Shown here: positions 18,269 to 43,668 of the stretch, in pieces
Layout: the number at the start of each line of letters is the position of its first letter
Position numbering within the stretch: position 1 is the stretch's first letter
NCBI GenBank assembly: GCA_017559445.1
Contig: JAFYSJ010000026.1
Location: forward strand, 1-64,000
Direction: 5' to 3'
DNA: 64,000 nt
Source of the DNA: Clostridia bacterium
GTDB lineage: Bacteria; Bacillota; Clostridia; RGIG7378
Translations under genes and position numbers: made by a program
Notes under the pieces: generated by a model
What the model saw: the letters and a program-made list of their open reading frames with translations, nothing else
Database searches by the model: none
Told to the model about the DNA's origin: nothing

Positions 18269-18988
18269 TTATTTCGGAAGAACGTCTTTTATATATGCAT
18301 TAACGCTATGGTATACTTCTTCAAAGTTAGGTTTATTAACACCGCCGGCAAAACGGAATTTTTCGTAGGAATGCTTTAAATCTTCAGACCTGTGGAGAAA
18401 ACCATTGAAATCTTCTAAGGCTCTTTCGCTATTTTTCAAAGTTTGAAGAACTTCGGTGACGTTAAATTCAAATACTTTTGAGATATAATATAAATCTATA
18501 ACATCCTTAATACGACGAAATACCTTATCAGTGGAGATTGCCGCAACCTTATCTGCAATCATTTGAGAAGGAGATACACCACAAAAGCGAAGACCTTCTA
18601 CTTCGTAGATTTTTGTAGGAGCTATCGGTCGGTTTACATCCACATCCATAGTGAAAAGAGTTTCCTCAGTTTCACGGTTAATTAGCTCGAGACCGGCAGA
18701 ACGTTTTTCACCATACATTCTGTAAATCTTAACTTCAAGATTAACACCACTTTTGTCGATTGCTTTTTGCAAAGAATCTTCCATCTGTTTCGAAGTAGGG
18801 GGAGTATCAGAGTTCCAGTTGGCATCAATATCTACGGTGTGGCGGGTATCATCATTATACCCCGCTTCAAGCAAACAAGCCTTTAAAACCATGGAGCCCT
18901 TAAAACTGATAGGGATTCCACTGTCATAGATGGCTTTCATAACCTTATACATTATTTTTTCTTCTACTGTTAAATTCAAAAGAATCAC
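18269..18988 (-). CDS. AbiEii/AbiGii-family nucleotidyltransferase toxin
   Basis: 239 residues from a GTG at 18988; an ATG 12 codons in is an alternative. The fold signature is that of the AbiEii nucleotidyltransferase family: FKGSMVLKACL (about 29-39, the GG/GS...L substrate loop), then RHTVDIDANW with the metal-binding DxD (about 49-58), FTMDVDVNR with a third acidic strand, and a ...MIADKVAAIST... helix near the C-terminal half. Such toxins modify nucleotide or tRNA targets and cause growth arrest. The antitoxin gene lies one base upstream. Family assignment is strong; the target is unknown. Confidence 0.87.
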   Translation of the reverse strand: MILLNLTVEEKIMYKVMKAIYDSGIPISFKGSMVLKACLLEAGYNDDTRHTVDIDANWNSDTPPTSKQMEDSLQKAIDKSGVNLEVKIYRMYGEKRSAGLELINRETEETLFTMDVDVNRPIAPTKIYEVEGLRFCGVSPSQMIADKVAAISTDKVFRRIKDVIDLYYISKVFEFNVTEVLQTLKNSERALEDFNGFLHRSEDLKHSYEKFRFAGGVNKPNFEEVYHSVNAYIKDVLPK

Positions 18989-18989
18989 C

Positions 18990-19640
18990 TCAACTTCCGT
19001 AATATTCTATTGCTTCATTTGCTAACATTTCGAATCTATCTTGATATTCAGGAGAGATAAAAATACCGTCGAAACTATCACCATTTGCATAATAATAGCG
19101 GCTTAAGGCTTCGGTTATTCCTTGCATATCTAAAATAGCCTCGTTAGTAAAAGCGTCAAATACCGTTCGGTTGAAGTCGGTATAGAGCAACCCATTTCGA
19201 CTCTTAATATGGCGAGAACCAATGTGATTTCCCAATACAACCACACCATTAAACTGTGTAACACTGTCTTCGCCATAAACCCAAACAACGTATTCATCGT
19301 TACGACCACCGAAACTACCTTGACACATAAGTGCTTCGTCTAAAGCGAATACTACCGATTCTCCTAAACAGTCTCTCACAGCCTTGAGCCAAGAGAGCGC
19401 GCCTACGTAATCACTACGCTTAGGAAGATTGCGCTTTTGTGGATCATACTTGGGTAGTGTTGTAGTTTTGTGGTTAATCAAGTCGTTCTTTATGCGTTGC
19501 TCCAATAAGGTAATAATATATTCAGGTGGAGTGCGCTTACCTGTTTCCCAATTTTGAACAGTACGAAAGGGAATGCTATATCGTGCAGCAAATTCACTTT
19601 GAGTAACTCCTAGCTTTGTTCTCATTTCACGAATGTTCAT
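18990..19640 (-). CDS. XRE-family antitoxin/regulator with C-terminal domain
   Basis: 216 residues. Residues 1-60 are a helix-turn-helix of XRE type (EMRTKLGVTQSEFAARYSIP, then FRTVQNWETGKRTPPEYI). The remainder (about 75-216) is a separate domain without a family I recognise. It is co-transcribed with the nucleotidyltransferase toxin, one base apart, and the palindrome over its own -10 box indicates autoregulation. It replaces the winged-helix AbiEi antitoxin usually paired with AbiEii. RBS GGTGAGGTGAGG just before the ATG. Confidence 0.8.
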   Translation of the reverse strand: MNIREMRTKLGVTQSEFAARYSIPFRTVQNWETGKRTPPEYIITLLEQRIKNDLINHKTTTLPKYDPQKRNLPKRSDYVGALSWLKAVRDCLGESVVFALDEALMCQGSFGGRNDEYVVWVYGEDSVTQFNGVVVLGNHIGSRHIKSRNGLLYTDFNRTVFDAFTNEAILDMQGITEALSRYYYANGDSFDGIFISPEYQDRFEMLANEAIEYYGS

Positions 19641-19838: not shown

Positions 19839-21209
19839 TTATAGCTGATCTGCTAGAACTTTTCGCTTTTCCCATTTTCCACTTAAGAAGTAGATACAGC
19901 TTGGGATGGCAGTTCCGTATGTGGCCAATGCGTATCCAAGAACGAATCCGTAGAAGCCCCAACCAAGCGCGATACCAAATAGCCAGCTAAGTCCAATTCT
20001 AAGCACTACGCCGTCCAACATCGCAAGGACTAATCCTAAGTAGGCGTTACCAATACCCTGTATAAAGGCGAATGTGCCTCTCATAATGGTAAGGGCCGGC
20101 ATCATCCACAGGATAGCCTGAATAAATGTGTGTGACATCTCGTGAACCAGTGGGTCGTCAGAGAACATCATAAAGAGTTGCTTGCCCATTGTGAGGTAGA
20201 TTGTCATGCAGATAACTGTCAATGCGCCTGCGAAAATCCAGGAGCAGTAAACAGTTTTCTTAGCTCTGTCATTCTTGCCAGCGGCAATATTCTGGGCAAC
20301 GATTGGCATAGCAGCAAATTGGATGCCCTGAGAAATTTTGCTAAAAATATCGTCGATACGCACGCCAACTCCAAATGTGGCAGATGCAACAACGCTAATG
20401 CTGTTAACAAGGGAGTTAACGAACATCATGGAAATGTTAATGCATCCAGCCTGAATAGCCATGGGCAATCCCTGATTAAAAATAAGGCGAACGTAGTTGA
20501 ACTTAGGAATAAAGCTGGACAACTTAAAGTCAAAGCCAAATGCTTCTCTGTGCTTGAACAAGTAGTACAAGGAGAACAGGAAGGAAACACCCTGACCGAT
20601 GATTGTAGCCCATGCAGCGCCTGCAACCTTCATATCCAAGAATCCTGTGAAGATAATGTCCAATACAAGGTTAACAACAGTTGCAATACCAATAAAGAGA
20701 AGAGGTCTCTTGGAATCTCCCATTCCACGAAGAACAGCAGAAACCATGTTGTATCCAGCAGTGAAGAAAAGTCCGCATCCGCAGATGATCAAATAATCCA
20801 TGGACATGGCATAGGACTCTGTAGGCATGTTCATTACATCCAAAATCCATGTTCTAGCGAAAAGGATTACGACGGAAAGTACAATTCCCATTGCAGAGAT
20901 TAGGGAGAAAAGTGTTCCGATGATCTGGTTAAGCTCCTTGCGTTTTTGGGAACCAATAGCATGGGCAACGAGAATCTGTCCTGCGTTGGAAAAGCCAAGG
21001 CACATCATGGTGGCAAAGTTTAGAATAAGACTGCTCTGGTAAACGGCAGAAAGTCCTGCTGTACCAACGAATTTGCCAACGATAACCATATCGATGGTGC
21101 TGTATAGAACCTGAAGTGCGTTTGCTGCCATGAATGGAATAGACATGGTTATGAGGAAACGCCATATGCTACCTTGTGTAAAATCTTTGGATAAGTGTTT
21201 TTTGGACAT
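19839..21209 (-). CDS. MATE-family efflux transporter
   Basis: 456 residues with about 12 hydrophobic helices in two halves, the length and layout of NorM/DinF-type MATE pumps. The N-terminus (GSIWRFLITMSIPFMAANALQ, then YSTIDMVIVGKFVG) and the middle GYNMVSAVLRGMGDSKRPL are hallmark stretches. It exports cationic drugs or metabolites using Na+ or H+. AGAGG precedes the ATG by about 7 bases. A CTAG-hairpin array (21224-21460) lies directly upstream of the RBS, so it would be within the leader or promoter region of this gene. Confidence 0.93.
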   Translation of the reverse strand: MSKKHLSKDFTQGSIWRFLITMSIPFMAANALQVLYSTIDMVIVGKFVGTAGLSAVYQSSLILNFATMMCLGFSNAGQILVAHAIGSQKRKELNQIIGTLFSLISAMGIVLSVVILFARTWILDVMNMPTESYAMSMDYLIICGCGLFFTAGYNMVSAVLRGMGDSKRPLLFIGIATVVNLVLDIIFTGFLDMKVAGAAWATIIGQGVSFLFSLYYLFKHREAFGFDFKLSSFIPKFNYVRLIFNQGLPMAIQAGCINISMMFVNSLVNSISVVASATFGVGVRIDDIFSKISQGIQFAAMPIVAQNIAAGKNDRAKKTVYCSWIFAGALTVICMTIYLTMGKQLFMMFSDDPLVHEMSHTFIQAILWMMPALTIMRGTFAFIQGIGNAYLGLVLAMLDGVVLRIGLSWLFGIALGWGFYGFVLGYALATYGTAIPSCIYFLSGKWEKRKVLADQL

Positions 21210-21223
21210 TTATTATACCTCTG

Positions 21224-21460
21224 GGTTAGTGAGCCGCTGCGCTAGTAGCCGCCTTCGGCTAGTGAGCCGCTACGCTAGTAGTCGCACCGTTGGTGCTAGT
21301 GAGCCGCTACGCTAGTAGTCGCTGCGCTAGTGAACCGCAACTGCGTTGCTAGTAGGCCGCCTTCGGCTAGTGAGCCACGAGCAAAGCTCGTTAGTGAGCC
21401 GCTGCGCTAGTAGTCGCTGCGCTAGTGAGCCGCTACGCTAGTAGTCGCTGCGCTAGTTAA
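21224..21460. repeat. CTAG-linked hairpin-module array A
   Basis: About 13 consecutive units, each made of a linker CTAGTGAGCCG or CTAGTAGTCG (the two types roughly alternate) plus one short self-complementary module. Modules seen: CGCTGCG/CGCTACG, GCCTTCGGC, CACCGTTGGTG, CAACTGCGTTG and CGAGCAAAGCTCG. The order is variable. It ends with CTAGTTAA and a GC palindrome near 21461-21474. The orientation is opposite to array B at 24031. It is not a CRISPR: units are 15-25 bases and the inserts are recurring palindromes. Confidence 0.9.
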
Positions 21461-21553: not shown

Positions 21554-22639
21554 CTATTTAGACGACAAAACTTCGATGTGTGACAAGGGAGCCTGCATAA
21601 TATTCCAAGAAAGAGCCGCTCCAGTGCAACCATTTTTGCCAATTACATCGAGACATTCCCTCACATACTGGGGAGAAGTCTTAACTAGCTCTGGATGGTG
21701 GTTGATCTCTATGCCAGCGTATACGTGGCAGGGAAGATTGCTAAGTGCCTTAAGCTGGTCATCTAAGAAATTTGCATCCATTTGGATGGCTTCGTAGCCC
21801 TGTGCCTTTGGAGCGGAACTTTTAAGCAAGTAGTACTCATAACCTAATCCGGCGGGGGCAAGGGTTCTTCGGTACAGCATGGGCTTAACAAAATCTGCAT
21901 GCTGGGCAAGGAGGTTATAGTCCTGTCCCACGAATCTGGACATAAGGGGCGCAAATGTGTCTAAACCAACTTCTAGACCAAGATCCTTAAAATGCTTGCA
22001 AAGTTCGCCTACACCCTGGTCAATAATCTTGCATTTTGAATTAAAGAAATTTTCGGTGATTTCGTGGGCAAAGGAGCCGTTTGGCAACTTATCAAAGAAG
22101 TTATCTTCTAATGTTTCGTATGCCTTTCTCACATCATCTAAGGAAACGCCATTTTCAAAATGCTTTTCTGCGCATCTTGGGCAACCACAGCTTAACACGC
22201 CAGAAACACCTCCACCAAAGGAGTGGGTTCTGATTCTGTCCATAAAGACTCCATCAAAACCAGAGGTGGAGAAGTATTTGTGGTACATCTCTTTAACTAA
22301 ATCAATGTTGTCTGGAGAGGAAGGGCAGCAGAAATCGAATGTTTCGCCGCTTTGCACTAGGGAAGGAGCGATATCTTTTCCCCAAAGGGCAACAGCCTTG
22401 TGGATTGAACCAAATTCTGCAGTATCTGAGAAAACAGGGAGCCAAAGGACCATTTTGGTGCCGTACTTTGACAAGAACTCCTTGAGTCTAAGGTACATAT
22501 CCTCATTGGGGTACCAGCCCAGCATGAGCTTGTCCACGGAAATGAGCTCAAAAACTTGGCTTAGTCTGGCGATTATATCTTGTGCCTCGTACTCCTGGTG
22601 GAAACGACTGCCTGTAGATAATTGCACTGTGTACTGCAT
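21554..22639 (-). CDS. Hypothetical TIM-barrel protein, glycoside-hydrolase-like
   Basis: 361 residues, cytoplasmic (no signal peptide). A repeating strand-helix pattern with acidic residues at strand ends suggests a TIM barrel of the glycoside-hydrolase/alpha-amylase-like type: YGTKMVLWLPVFSD, GFDGVFMDRIRTHSF (about 127-141), GLEVGLDTFAPL and HADFVKPMLYRR. A paired cysteine patch, CGCPRCAEKHF (about 152-162), resembles the CxCxxC seen in some uncharacterised barrel families. I cannot name a family or substrate. It has its own minus-strand promoter, and together with the TIR-HAD gene it lies between the inverted arrays A and B. Confidence 0.55.
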   Translation of the reverse strand: MQYTVQLSTGSRFHQEYEAQDIIARLSQVFELISVDKLMLGWYPNEDMYLRLKEFLSKYGTKMVLWLPVFSDTAEFGSIHKAVALWGKDIAPSLVQSGETFDFCCPSSPDNIDLVKEMYHKYFSTSGFDGVFMDRIRTHSFGGGVSGVLSCGCPRCAEKHFENGVSLDDVRKAYETLEDNFFDKLPNGSFAHEITENFFNSKCKIIDQGVGELCKHFKDLGLEVGLDTFAPLMSRFVGQDYNLLAQHADFVKPMLYRRTLAPAGLGYEYYLLKSSAPKAQGYEAIQMDANFLDDQLKALSNLPCHVYAGIEINHHPELVKTSPQYVRECLDVIGKNGCTGAALSWNIMQAPLSHIEVLSSK

Positions 22640-22788: not shown

Positions 22789-23964
22789 ATGTATAGAAAT
22801 TTCATTTGCTACAGAGGCGGATCTTCTGCAGGAATACATTATGCTAACGATATATATGTACACTTAAATCAAATCAAGGATAAAGTTGGGGTTACATATT
22901 ATTCTCCAGAAAAGGAGTTTGCAGGAGAAGTTCGAAATTTTTTGTTAGATCCAGCAAAATATCTTGGAAATGTAGAAAACTTCATTATGTTATTAACAAG
23001 AGATTTCTTTGATGGATTCATTGTGGATGGCAGGCCCAATCCAGAGTCGGTTACGAGAATAGAGATAGATGAAATTCTAAAAAATGATAACGTAAAAATT
23101 ATACCTGTTGTATTTCCAGATTTCTCATGGGCAGACACCACCAAGGGTAAATCAAATCAAGACATATTGACAGAGCTTTGGGGTGAGGAAGCCATGAATA
23201 GAATTGTTGGTTCGCCTCCAATTCCCTATGTTTTTCAATATAGAAATCAAGTAACGCAGCTGGTAGCAGATGAATTGACAGCTAAGAGTAGTAGCAAAAG
23301 GGTTGTAGTATTCGATTTTGATGGCACATTAACTAAACCAAGAGTAGATGCGAATACATGGGAGTTGTTATGGGAGAGCCTTGGATATGATGTATCGGAG
23401 TGTGAAAAGTATCACAGGCAGTTTAGTAGAGGCGAAATTTCTCATGAGGAATGGTGTGAAATAACAGAAAAGAAATTTAAGGAAGCAGGCTGTAGCAAGA
23501 AGAATCTTAAGGAAACAGCATTTAAAGCAGAACTTGTGGATGACGTGTTTGAAGTCATTAGGGAGCTTAGGTCAAAGGGAATATTATTGTATATATTGTC
23601 CGGTTCCATTAAGCAGTACATAGAACTTGTATTGGGCAAGGAGATGAGCTCGTGTTTTGTGGAGATAAAGGCCAACAGGATGACCTTTGATGATCAGGGA
23701 ATGTTAGATGGAATTATTGGTACGCCCTATGATTTTGAGGGGAAGGCCAAATTTGTAAATAAAATAATTGGCGAAAAACAGGTGTCTCCCAAGGATATCA
23801 TCTACGTTGGCAATTCCTTTAATGATGAGTTCGTATATACTACTGGAGTTGAAACCTTGTGCATCAATCCAAGGGGCACAGATTACTATAACAACAAGGT
23901 TTGGCATAATTATATACGAAGATTAACAAGCTTGAAGGAAATTCTGCCTTATATTTATTCATAA
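22789..23964 (+). CDS. TIR domain fused to HAD-IB-type phosphatase
   Basis: 391 residues in two domains. Residues 1-160 are a TIR domain of the FxxYRGG type (NFICYRGGSSAGIHYANDIY, later YSPEKEF and a KIIPVVFPDFSW strand). Glu92 in SVTRIEIDEIL sits where TIR NADases carry the catalytic glutamate. Residues 171-391 are a HAD phosphatase like phosphoserine phosphatase: motif I DFDGT at 176-180, motif II in YILSGS, a lysine in FEGKAKFV, and motif IV YVGNSFNDEF. All HAD residues are present. A TIR head could make NAD-derived signals or deplete NAD; a phosphatase tail could process a phosphorylated product. Both ideas are inference. The gene has its own promoter and terminator. Confidence 0.8.
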   Translation: MYRNFICYRGGSSAGIHYANDIYVHLNQIKDKVGVTYYSPEKEFAGEVRNFLLDPAKYLGNVENFIMLLTRDFFDGFIVDGRPNPESVTRIEIDEILKNDNVKIIPVVFPDFSWADTTKGKSNQDILTELWGEEAMNRIVGSPPIPYVFQYRNQVTQLVADELTAKSSSKRVVVFDFDGTLTKPRVDANTWELLWESLGYDVSECEKYHRQFSRGEISHEEWCEITEKKFKEAGCSKKNLKETAFKAELVDDVFEVIRELRSKGILLYILSGSIKQYIELVLGKEMSSCFVEIKANRMTFDDQGMLDGIIGTPYDFEGKAKFVNKIIGEKQVSPKDIIYVGNSFNDEFVYTTGVETLCINPRGTDYYNNKVWHNYIRRLTSLKEILPYIYS

Positions 23965-23998: not shown

Positions 23999-24030
23999 TT
24001 GTACAGAATGATAAAAGAATAACTTAAACT

Positions 24031-24350
24031 GGCGCAACAGCGTGGTTCACTAGCGCAGCGGCCACTAGCACCAACGGTGCGGCTCACTAACGAGCTTTGC
24101 TCGTGGTTCACTAGCGTAGCGGCCACTAGCAACGCAGTTGCGGCTCACTAACGAGCTTTGCTCGTGGTTCACTAGCCGAAGGCGGCCTACTAGCGCGATA
24201 GCGCGGCCACTAGCACCAACGGTGCGGTTCACTAGGCGCAGCCGGTTCACTAGCGTAGCGACCACTAGCAACGCAGTTGCGGCTCACTAACGAGCTTTGC
24301 TCGTGGTTCACTAGCGCAGCGGCCACTAGCACCAACGGTGCGGCTCACTA
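24031..24350. repeat. CTAG-linked hairpin-module array B (inverted relative to array A)
   Basis: About 16 units of the same kind as array A, but on the opposite strand: read on the minus strand they are CTAGTGGCCG, CTAGTGAACC(G) or TTAGTGAGCCG linkers followed by modules CACCGTTGGTG, CTGCG, ACGAGCAAAGCTCG, CAACTGCGTTG, CTACG, CCTTCGG and CGCTATCGCG. The block of ACGAGCAAAGCTCG then CAACTGCGTTG occurs twice. It fills almost all of the interval between the TIR-HAD gene and the flavoenzyme operon. Confidence 0.9.
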
Positions 24351-24360
24351 AATTAACTCC

Positions 24361-24423: not shown

Positions 24424-26493
24424 ATGAGTGACATGAACAAAAAGTATGAGGCTCTGTTTACACCCTGGAAGGTTGGCAATGTGGAGATTAAGAACCGCAT
24501 TGTTATGTGCCCCATGGGAGGAACATCCCTTTTTGGTTGGTTTGAGCTTGGTGGCTGTCATTTTGACAAGGAGGCTGCTAAGCTGTTTTTGGAGAGAGCT
24601 AACAACAACGTTGGCCTTATTATTCCTGGTATCGCTCCACTTAGAGACACATTCTGGGGCAAGTGGCTTTGGCAGAACCCTAAGATGTTCGATGAGCTCA
24701 AGGAGTTCATGGACGAGATTCACAAGACAGGAGCTAAGCTCTTTGTTCAGCTGACAGCTGGTATGGGTCGTTCTTGGGCTATTACAGAGCTTGTTGCACC
24801 ACTTCACAAGAACAAGGTTACACGTGCACTTCTCAAGCCTATTTTGGATACAAACCATGAGCTTGCTTGTCCAAGTCCACAGCCTTCTCGTTGGGCACAT
24901 GACATTATCTGTCCAGAGATGACAGTAGAGCAGATTCACGAGATTATCGAGGCATTTGCTAAGACAGCTAAGCTTTGTATGGATGCTGGTGTAGATGGCG
25001 TTGAGGTTCACGCTGTTCACGAGGGCTATTTGCTTGACCAGTTTGCCATCGAATTCTTTAACAAGAGACAGGACGAGTATGGCGGATCCTTCGAAAACCG
25101 CTACCGCTTTGCAGCAGAGGTTGTAAAGGCTATTAAGGCAGAGTGTGGTCAGGATTATCCCGTTTCCCTTAGATATTCCGTAGAGTCCAAGATGAAGGGC
25201 TTCTGCGAGGGCGCAATGCCAGGTGAGGACTACGTAGAAGTAGGCCGTAACATGGAGGAGTCCGAAAAGGCAGCTAAGTACTTGCAGGATGCAGGTTACG
25301 ATATGCTCAACGCAGATAACGGAACATATGACTCCTGGTACTGGGCACATCCACCGATGTATATGCCAGAGAACTGCAACTTGGACGATGTTGCACACAT
25401 TAAGAAGTTCGTAGATATTCCTGTAGTTTGTGCAGGTAGAATGGACGCAGAGGTAGGCGCTCAGGCAGTTGCTGAGGGCAGAATCGACGGCGTTGGTGTT
25501 GCTCGTCAGTTCTTGGTAGATCCAGAGTGGATTACTAAGCTTATCGAGGACAGAATCGAAGATATTAAGCCATGTATTTGCTGCCACAGCGGATGCTTTA
25601 ACTTCTCTTCCTCCAGAGGACATGCTAATACTCAGGATTTGACAGATACAATGGGTCTTGCACGTTGTGCTCTTAACCCCAAGACAATGCAGTCCAAGAA
25701 GTACAACCTTAAGCCTGCTAAGAAGGTTAAGAAGGTTGCTATCGTTGGCGGTGGTATTGGTGGTATGGAGGCAGCACTTGTTTGTGCACAGAGAGGCCAT
25801 ACAGTTACACTTTACGAAAAGTCTGGTGAGCTTGGTGGCGTTTTCGTAGCAGCTGCAGCACCTTCCTTCAAGGAAAAGGATAGAGCCCTTATTGCATGGT
25901 ATATCCGTCAGCTTTCCTTGTACCCAATCGAGGTAAAACTTAATACAGAAGTTACAGATATTAACGCTTTGGATGCAGATGAAATCATCATCGCAACAGG
26001 CGCAAAGGCAAGGAGAATTCCAGTTAAGGGCGCAGAGACAGCTATTGAGGCTGTAGATTACTTGCTTGGAAAGGCTCCAGTAGGAGATAAGGTTACAATT
26101 ATCGGCGGTGGTCTTACAGGTTGTGAGATTGCTTATGACTTGTTCTTGCAGGGCAAGCATCCTTCCATCGTAGAAATGCAGGATGACCTTATTACAACTC
26201 CCGGTATTTGTTTGGCTAACACAAGCTACTTGAGAGATTGCTTTAAGACAAACAATGTTCCAGTTCACCTTGAGACAGCTTTGGTTGAAATTTGCGACGG
26301 TTACGTAACAGTTAGAAACAAGGATGGAGAGACATTCCAGATTCCTTCCGACAACGTAATCCTTTCCGTTGGTTACAACCCAGCACCTTTGGCACCTAAG
26401 GCTAAGAACGTTCACGTAATCGGCGACGCTAACAAGGTTGGCAACCTCAGAACAGTTATTTGGGGCGCTTGGGACGTTTGCATGAAGATCTAG
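24424..26493 (+). CDS. NADH:flavin oxidoreductase, 2-enoate reductase / 2,4-dienoyl-CoA reductase type
   Basis: 689 residues. An FMN TIM barrel of the old-yellow-enzyme family spans about 8-365 (PWKVGNVEIKNRIVMCPMGG, GVDGVEVHAVHEGYLLDQF, EYGGSFENRYRFA). The [4Fe-4S] cysteines are CICCHSGC at about 384-391 plus the cysteine in ARCALNP. The C-terminal FAD/NAD(P) half has VAIVGGGIGGMEAA at about 439-452 and TIIGGGLTGCEIA. This is the layout of enoate reductase, FadH and the Bai proteins, which reduce activated C=C bonds. It is the first gene of an operon with two aconitase X genes, so it may reduce the double bond they create. The substrate is unknown. Confidence 0.9.
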   Translation: MSDMNKKYEALFTPWKVGNVEIKNRIVMCPMGGTSLFGWFELGGCHFDKEAAKLFLERANNNVGLIIPGIAPLRDTFWGKWLWQNPKMFDELKEFMDEIHKTGAKLFVQLTAGMGRSWAITELVAPLHKNKVTRALLKPILDTNHELACPSPQPSRWAHDIICPEMTVEQIHEIIEAFAKTAKLCMDAGVDGVEVHAVHEGYLLDQFAIEFFNKRQDEYGGSFENRYRFAAEVVKAIKAECGQDYPVSLRYSVESKMKGFCEGAMPGEDYVEVGRNMEESEKAAKYLQDAGYDMLNADNGTYDSWYWAHPPMYMPENCNLDDVAHIKKFVDIPVVCAGRMDAEVGAQAVAEGRIDGVGVARQFLVDPEWITKLIEDRIEDIKPCICCHSGCFNFSSSRGHANTQDLTDTMGLARCALNPKTMQSKKYNLKPAKKVKKVAIVGGGIGGMEAALVCAQRGHTVTLYEKSGELGGVFVAAAAPSFKEKDRALIAWYIRQLSLYPIEVKLNTEVTDINALDADEIIIATGAKARRIPVKGAETAIEAVDYLLGKAPVGDKVTIIGGGLTGCEIAYDLFLQGKHPSIVEMQDDLITTPGICLANTSYLRDCFKTNNVPVHLETALVEICDGYVTVRNKDGETFQIPSDNVILSVGYNPAPLAPKAKNVHVIGDANKVGNLRTVIWGAWDVCMKI

Positions 26494-40596: not shown

Positions 40597-41331
40597 ATGA
40601 CCAAGGCTGTTCTAATTACAGGTGCATCTAGGGGAATAGGCGCTGCCATAGCAGAGACTTTTGCTAAGGCTGGATATGCTGTAGGTATCAACTACAATAG
40701 CAGTCAGGAGAGAGCAGAGCAGTTGGCAAGCAGGCTGACTGAGCAGTATGGTGTAAAGGCAACTATTCACAAGTGCAACGTGGCAAATCCTAAGGAAGTA
40801 GAGGAAATGGTTCAGGACTTTGTTAAGAGTCATGGAAATATTTCCACATTGGTCTGCAATGCAGGTGTTGCACACATGGGACTTTTGTCAGATATGACAG
40901 ATGGTGAATGGGATAAGGTCTTGGGTACAAATCTTAGCGGAACTTTCTATGCTTGCAGACAGGTTATTCCGTACATGGTACGCCAGCAGGAAGGTAGCAT
41001 AGTAACAGTGTCCTCCATGTGGGGACAGGAGGGAGCATCCTGTGAGGCAGCATATTCTGCAACAAAGGCAGGTATTATTGGTCTCACTAAGGCTTTGGCC
41101 AAGGAGTTGGGTCCCTCGAACATTAGAGTTAATTGCGTAGCTCCAGGCATGATCGCCACAGAGATGAATAGCTGTCTCTCTGAAGAAGATGTGCAGGCCA
41201 TTGCAGATGAGACACCACTTTGTCGCGTTGGCCAGCCTGAGGAGGTTGCAAAGGTAGTGTTGTTCTTGGCATCCCAGGAGGCTAGCTTTGTGACAGGCCA
41301 GGTTGTGGGCGTTAATGGAGGAATGTTTTAG
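40597..41331 (+). CDS. SDR-family oxidoreductase, FabG-like
   Basis: 244 residues, normal for a 3-oxoacyl-ACP reductase-like enzyme. NAD(P)-binding GASRGIGA at 7-14; NAG at 88-90; catalytic Ser in SSMWGQEG, and YSATK with Tyr and Lys at about 151-155. It reduces a carbonyl using NADPH, possibly in fatty-acid synthesis, but no other fab genes are near. Its TAG stop is the first TAG of the CTAG-hairpin array C. Confidence 0.88.
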   Translation: MTKAVLITGASRGIGAAIAETFAKAGYAVGINYNSSQERAEQLASRLTEQYGVKATIHKCNVANPKEVEEMVQDFVKSHGNISTLVCNAGVAHMGLLSDMTDGEWDKVLGTNLSGTFYACRQVIPYMVRQQEGSIVTVSSMWGQEGASCEAAYSATKAGIIGLTKALAKELGPSNIRVNCVAPGMIATEMNSCLSEEDVQAIADETPLCRVGQPEEVAKVVLFLASQEASFVTGQVVGVNGGMF

Positions 41332-41435
41332 TGATCCGCACCGTTGGTGCTAGTGAACCACGAGCAAAGCTCGTTAGTGAGCCGCTGCGCTAGTAGGTCG
41401 CACCGTTGGTGCTAGTAGCCGCCTTCGGCTAGTGT
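41329..41435. repeat. CTAG-linked hairpin-module array C
   Basis: Five units in the same orientation as array A: modules CACCGTTGGTG, ACGAGCAAAGCTCG, CTGCG, CACCGTTGGTG and CCTTCGG, joined by CTAGTGAACC, TTAGTGAGCCG, CTAGTAGGTCG and CTAGTAGCCG. The first TAG doubles as the stop codon of the SDR gene, and the last CTAG merges into the 7-bp repeat tract of the inverted repeat. Confidence 0.88.
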
Positions 41436-41466
41436 TTAGTGTTTGGTGTTGAGTGTTTAGTGAATG
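41432..41466. repeat. 7-bp tandem repeat tract, left
   Basis: GTGTTTA, GTGTTTG, GTGTTGA, GTGTTTA, GTGAATG: about five 7-bp units. The reverse complement of the same unit is repeated at 43613-43668. Confidence 0.75.
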
Positions 41467-41627
41467 TCCCTTTGTTCCTATGGTCTTTTATATATGAACT
41501 TACTTCATTCGTTAAACACTAATCACTAATAACTAAACACTGCAAACAAAGTTTGTGAACCGTGCCTCCCGCGCTTCGGAAGTAGCGGGCGACTTTTGAT
41601 TACTTTTGGTCGTTCAAAAGTAATGAA
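41452..41627. repeat. Long inverted repeat, left arm
   Basis: About 176 bp that pair with 43459-43623 at high identity. The left arm has a short insertion (about 10 bases near 41521-41540). Inside are smaller palindromes: CCCGC...GCGGG near 41569-41589 and ACTTTTG...CAAAAGT near 41592-41620. The remaining DNA to 41651 holds AACACTAATACGGAGG, the RBS of the macrodomain gene. This is the only content of the 320-base gap apart from array C. Confidence 0.88.
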
Positions 41628-41651
41628 TAAACACTAATACGGAGGATTTAT

Positions 41652-43623: not shown

Positions 43624-43668
43624 GAACACCCAACACCCAACACTCAACACTCAACACCAAACACTAAT
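43613..43668. repeat. 7-bp tandem repeat tract, right
   Basis: About seven units of AACACYN (AACACTG, AACACCC twice, AACACTC twice, AACACCA, AACACTA). It ends in AACACTAATACGGAGG, the same sequence that precedes the macrodomain gene. Confidence 0.8.

Follow-up and report, generated by a model that had tools for sequence, protein, structure and literature searches.

The genome of an uncultured gut Clostridia bacterium contains at least 66 arrays of very short hairpins, dispersed between its genes and built to one grammar. No transposase of the tested classes was found, and the arrays thus have the look of a new variety of selfish DNA made of very small elements. We see an even chance that their source is a very small, non-autonomous hairpin element that is mobile, starts arrays at AG|TGA or TAG|T sites and brings along the target for the next copy.

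Dispersed hairpin arrays in a single genome

The window, i.e. the whole stretch of 64,000 nt of contig JAFYSJ010000026.1 that was analysed, includes three arrays. Array A (21226..21458, plus strand) consists of 13 linker-plus-hairpin units and lies between two minus-strand genes, a MatE transporter gene on its left (19839-21209) and an ORF on its right (21554-22639). Further left, at 18269-19640 on the minus strand, AbiEii nucleotidyltransferase and HTH_3 genes are located side by side, a likely type IV toxin-antitoxin pair. Array B (about 24030..24351), with 16 units reading along the minus strand, is situated between two plus-strand genes, a HAD-family ORF (22789-23964) and an FMN/pyridine-nucleotide oxidoreductase gene (24424-26493). 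Array C (41329..41433, plus strand) has 5 units, and a plus-strand short-chain dehydrogenase gene (40597..41331) terminates at its first TAG, a stop codon that forms the left edge of the array. These counts agree with the array lengths of about 5, 13 and 16 proposed in the earlier note. The motif CTAGTGAGCC was found 20 times in the window when up to 1 mismatch was allowed, compared to 2.9 expected, and no shuffle reached 20. Genome-wide, the linker CTAGTGARCCGC had 228 exact occurrences, rising to 430 when one mismatch was tolerated (reversed-pattern control: 0 and 3), so that the modular hairpin arrays with linkers postulated in the note were borne out at both scales.

The genome is a single MAG (GCA_017559445.1; 1.68 Mb, 96% complete, 40 contigs). 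A relaxed unit pattern gave 512 matches (control: 0), and parsing of the stretches around arrays yielded at least 66 arrays and at least 672 units (about 670), including a handful of single matches due to chance. The pattern is thus not confined to the three sites first noticed. Pattern counts carry no E-values, genes were called as longest ORFs, and array/gene junctions were read by hand. The arrays are intergenic. Outside them, CTAG is under-represented (1.36 per kb compared to 3.69 expected from base composition), in agreement with the earlier description of CTAG as often rare in bacterial genomes but used here as punctuation. Contig ends are often located inside arrays (C9, C13, C19, C29, C36, C39 and others), which suggests that the arrays break short-read assembly; since several arrays are placed at contig ends, unit order within long arrays may carry assembly errors.

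The exact linker pattern had 0 matches in about 85,000 species scanned and in viral contigs, and searches of phage records and Rfam gave no match. In 390 other genomes of the class the relaxed unit pattern matched at most 3 times each, which is chance level, versus 512 times here. The sister species G001, which belongs to the same genus and was the only other genome of the order compared, is devoid of the hairpin-array pattern, and the literature searched held no account of such arrays as a known repeat family of the genus, an option the earlier note had raised. Judged by methionine gamma-lyase, the closest named relative is a sheep-colon Clostridia MAG (JAFVXO010000123.1, 89% identical).

Stems, loops and unit order

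Each unit of 15-24 bp comprises TAGT, 2-6 further nt and a hairpin core of 7-17 nt whose last letter, ahead of the following TAGT, is C or T. The cores were assigned to about 12 stem classes: GCnnnGC, GGCnnnGCC, GCCnnnGGC, GCAACnnnGTTGC, GCACCnnnGGTGC, ACGAGCnnnGCTCGT, GCAAGCnnnGCTTGC, GGACCnnnGGTCC, GCGCnnnnGCGC, GAACGCnnnGCGTTC, ACnnnGT and one imperfect class (class i), with stems down to 2 bp. The hairpin modules listed in the earlier note were correctly recognised, except that CGCTGCG is more properly taken as GC-TGC-GC, a mini-hairpin with a 2-bp stem; GCGAAGC, GCGCAGC and GCGTAGC are further mini-hairpins. A UUCG tetraloop in GCCTTCGGC was ruled out, as the stem closes on a TTC triloop. 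Most linkers conform to TAGTGARCC, TAGTGAGCC and TAGTGAACC being the commonest, and GTAG is present only in a minority of linkers of the TAGTAG type. The linker type depends on the cores at both of its sides.

Stems are near-invariant, and the per-site rate of change in loops is about 38-fold higher. In cores with 5-6-bp stems, 0.0033 substitutions per site were counted in the stem versus 0.124 in the loop (p=4e-54, a value that is overstated because hairpin copies are not independent, although the contrast is still large). In class i, GCGA...GAGC is always kept on the reverse strand (tandem G-A/A-G), and the inner pairs covary (GT/AC, AT/AT, AC/GT). Of 598 loops, 391 (65%) have the form GNA or GNNA on the reverse strand, compared to about 7% by composition, a share inflated by copy number, since only 16 of the 52 distinct core sequences carry such loops. 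The ACGAGC and GCAAGC classes have purine loops on the forward strand instead. Among the tetraloops, 30 of 36 follow GNNA, whereas the RNA rule GNRA fits only 1 of 36. As d(cGNNAg) is a stable tetraloop in DNA, we lean towards DNA, probably single-stranded, rather than RNA as the folded form of the hairpins. The mini-hairpin GCGAAGC is extraordinarily stable in DNA (PMC4686876). Folding of whole arrays with DNA parameters on both strands was no better than that of dinucleotide shuffles, and a large global structure was therefore rejected in favour of local hairpins.

The order of modules is shuffled, as had been proposed. Identical cores occur as neighbours once, compared to 31 times expected (minimum of 19 in 500 within-array shuffles), in a count that excludes the classes GCnnnGC and GCCnnnGGC, which are themselves also depleted. 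Since identical cores hardly ever adjoin, single-unit tandem duplication is not the main growth route. Multi-unit duplication does occur, as a 39-bp pair is repeated in contig C13; growth by unit duplication, as put forward in the earlier note, thus applies to longer blocks and not to single units. The same core recurs at lag 4 in 38 cases versus 19 expected. Copying mainly as multi-unit blocks was also weighed, but few n-grams are common to arrays: different arrays have 13 unit trigrams in common (0.2 by chance), and most combinations are unique. Alternation of the linkers (S to T 192, T to S 183, S to S 99 and T to T 82) hinted at a dimeric repeat unit, which was not established.

Placement at gene ends and at heptamer repeats

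Regarding their context, 22 arrays are tandem co-oriented, 15 tandem anti-oriented, 13 convergent and 7 divergent, and 9 are at edges. A co-directional upstream gene is present in 37 arrays, and in 24 of these its stop codon is the left edge of the array, as read by hand from the flanks; several other left ends come after terminator T-runs. In a mechanical test, TAG|T or AG|TGA was detected at 21 of the 37 co-directional upstream stops compared to 18/242 in the background (p=1e-11), and at only 3 of 30 right-hand stops (p=8e-5 versus upstream). The median distance in the test of stop-codon anchoring was 15 versus 101 bp, and the usual phase at the junction is NAG|TGA|RCC.

In all 9 anchored cases compared, the array-free orthologue ends at most 3 codons from the end of the protein encoded here. 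The ends coincide in five cases (window 41329, L040, L061, L074 and L078) and differ by one codon in L046 and L058, the end alignment of L058 being uncertain, while L050 and L066 are three residues shorter than their orthologues. In the relative L099, the same short-chain dehydrogenase gene has its TAG stop at the same position without an array. Because the arrays are dense in stop codons, an array running into a gene would likewise make that gene terminate at one of the array's stops. In L031, L034, L043, L059, L066 and L073, C-terminal codons apparently stem from the first array hairpin or linker, and the array appears to have entered or extended the reading frame in several of these genes.

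Array C runs straight on into a TAGTGTT-type heptamer repeat (41430..41464, plus strand), whose TAGTG register is that of the linkers. Inverted heptamer copies (AAACACTAATCACTAATAACTAAACACT), spotted by eye at 41507..41545 on the minus strand, pair with this repeat, and a second TAGTGTT-type repeat of the window is located at 43625..43666 on the minus strand (converted from reverse-strand index 20334-20376). A recurrent palindromic element, GTGCCTCCCGCGCTTCGGAAGTAGCGGGCGAC...TTACTTTKGGTCGTTC..AAAGTAA, adjoins hairpin arrays at about 41566-41630 of the window and at L034, L057, L050, L051 and L058. TAGTGTT heptamers of this genome are often preceded by a GATGC-TGC-GCATC hairpin, and often have inverted copies across a conserved GTCCCTTTGTTCCTATGGTC core (window 41429-41545, L031, L039, L050, L054, L059 and others). 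G001 has a similar core, TTTGTTCC...GGTC...GGAAC, flanked by GAGGTAA heptamers; this structure of heptamers and inverted copies is possibly a genus-wide MITE-like element.

In the 825 kb of G001 examined, 15 arrays of RRRGTRA heptamers were detected, 8 of them with a same-strand stop nearby, compared to 4.5% of random intergenic positions. Heptamer repeats of G001 are located at gene ends that bear hairpin arrays here (L040, L048 and L066, and a short one at L046), an overlap noticed after the fact that is suggestive only. At the G001 site L183, a stop-adjacent heptamer array ends in the single unit-like sequence GTGAACC-GCTGGGC-TGG; the linkers could accordingly represent heptamers between which hairpins have come to lie.

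Origin of the arrays and comparison to known repeats

If the arrays derive from a mobile element, this would consist of one hairpin of 7-17 nt and a TAGTGARCC-type linker. Copies would land at AG|TGA or TAG|T sites, which may be provided by same-strand gene stops, by terminator T-runs followed by TAGT, or by TAGTGNN heptamer repeats already present between genes. The unit end CTAG|T would serve as next target; since each unit ends in this way, arrays would form and grow by placement of further, different units, and blocks of several units would then duplicate as ordinary tandem repeats. Hairpin formation is probably kept by selection or by the copying process, because stems stay constant while loops drift and preferentially take the form GNA or GNNA. 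The copying agent might be an enzyme acting in trans or host replication or repair. In a stronger version, which appears possible to us but doubtful, single DNA hairpins of 15-24 nt would be the replicating units of a self-spreading system; they would be inserted in register at stop-codon motifs, draw on a combinatorial alphabet and obey a rule that bars identical neighbours.

As for candidate enzymes, the evidence that transposases are absent comes from family searches in a genome that is 96% complete. PF01797 (Y1_Tnp), representing RAYT, had 0 matches in this genome and matched in 5 control genomes. Reverse transcriptase (PF00078) likewise had 0 matches, with matches in 3 control genomes, and a retroelement-mobilised hairpin, which requires this enzyme, was rejected. 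The Y2 HUH transposase (PF04986) of Helitron/IS91-type rolling-circle elements, which carry a hairpin and a CTAG end, was not matched either, and here the control genomes were equally silent. Of the suggestion in the earlier note that a selfish repeat depends on a trans-acting enzyme, the selfish-repeat part was thus retained, and RAYT as the enzyme was not.

These searches also bear on a REP/BIME system mobilised by a RAYT, an IS200/IS605-like HUH transposase. Extragenic high-copy palindromes in mosaic arrays with preserved complementarity, the hallmarks of REPs, BIMEs and REPINs (PMC2817692, PMC3116915, PMC3733652), were found here, and linkers of the TAGTAG type contain GTAG. However, membership fails, as there is no RAYT gene and no constant tag, GTAG (or CGTC), at one palindrome end. 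Moreover, the arrays run head-to-tail instead of in alternating orientation, and with units of 15-24 bp their stems are much shorter, which altogether renders this origin very improbable. A passive origin would dispense with a mobile element and combine slippage and hairpin template switching at TAGTG heptamers with ectopic gene conversion between arrays. Both species have heptamer repeats, which in G001 coincide in part with gene ends that bear arrays here; template switching yields perfect palindromes and alters their loops, and block duplications were observed. Yet under slippage identical neighbours should be common, and here they are avoided. To bring one set of a dozen stems to 66 loci, copying over long distances is needed, whereas few multi-unit blocks are common to them; we regard a passive origin as unlikely.

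Alternatively, the arrays could benefit the host as RNA, being transcribed downstream of genes, where they would shield the 3' ends of mRNAs or influence read-through in the manner of operon-end BIMEs. The compact cores with conserved stems and the left array ends adjoining same-strand stop codons are consistent with this. Nevertheless, arrays showed no orientation bias towards transcription (40 of 66 follow the local gene majority, p=0.11), some come after intrinsic terminators, they have no Rfam match, and folding, albeit with DNA parameters, did not exceed shuffles. The role in RNA stability or attenuation considered in the earlier note is weakened by the lack of bias and the folding result, and we judge it decidedly unlikely. 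A host function at the DNA level, by binding a nucleoid protein or gyrase to organise the chromosome, would accord with short, dispersed intergenic palindromes in ordered mosaics, and BIMEs bind gyrase, IHF and Pol I (PMC2817692). But the arrays are restricted to one species and absent even from its sister, a dozen different stems are not what one would expect of a fixed binding site, and there was no replication-strand preference (37/66 arrays on the G-rich strand, p=0.39), so that such a function seems highly unlikely.

Two systems of small repeats resemble the proposed mobile hairpin. SDR1-8 of Nostoc punctiforme, described by Elhai et al. in 2008 (Genome Res 18:1484, as cited in PMC3116915), are reportedly 21-27-nt repeats, several with a common hairpin and compensatory change, and are said to be often embedded in tandem heptamers, nested in their own copies, confined to one clade and without an enzyme of their own. 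By that description, the 15-24-bp hairpin units and the covariation in class i are similar, and the association of units with TAGTGNN heptamers, as where array C joins its heptamer block, may be; the phylum, the alphabet of about 12 stems, the long head-to-tail arrays, the stop-codon anchoring and the avoidance of identical neighbours are not, nor apparently are the sequences. GC clusters of yeast mitochondria (M1-M4, GC42) are short GC-rich hairpins with an AG/TAG target and tandem arrays of different classes, whose loops change faster than stems, whose modules are shuffled and which lack their own enzyme (PMC4478555, PMC4464245). The arrays here likewise combine short hairpins, tandem runs of different classes, faster change in loops and shuffled modules, and their TAG/AG-type junctions at stops (21/37 versus 18/242) may correspond to the yeast target, all of it a likeness of design only. 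The arrays differ in residing on a bacterial chromosome, in units of half the size that are nearly always arrayed, and in sites that coincide with stop codons.

For both the Nostoc SDRs and the yeast GC clusters, we know of no settled account of how the smallest repeats spread without their own enzyme. With about 670 units that follow a clear grammar at 66 sites, an apparent target and a close relative that lacks the arrays, the present genome would make target choice and copying at the DNA versus the RNA level directly testable if the units are mobile. The repeats settle on stop codons, and in the compared cases protein C-termini are altered by at most a few residues. If the self-spreading reading is true, few known mobile DNAs would be as small as these units, and their host would be a bacterium without the usual Y1 transposase and reverse transcriptase.
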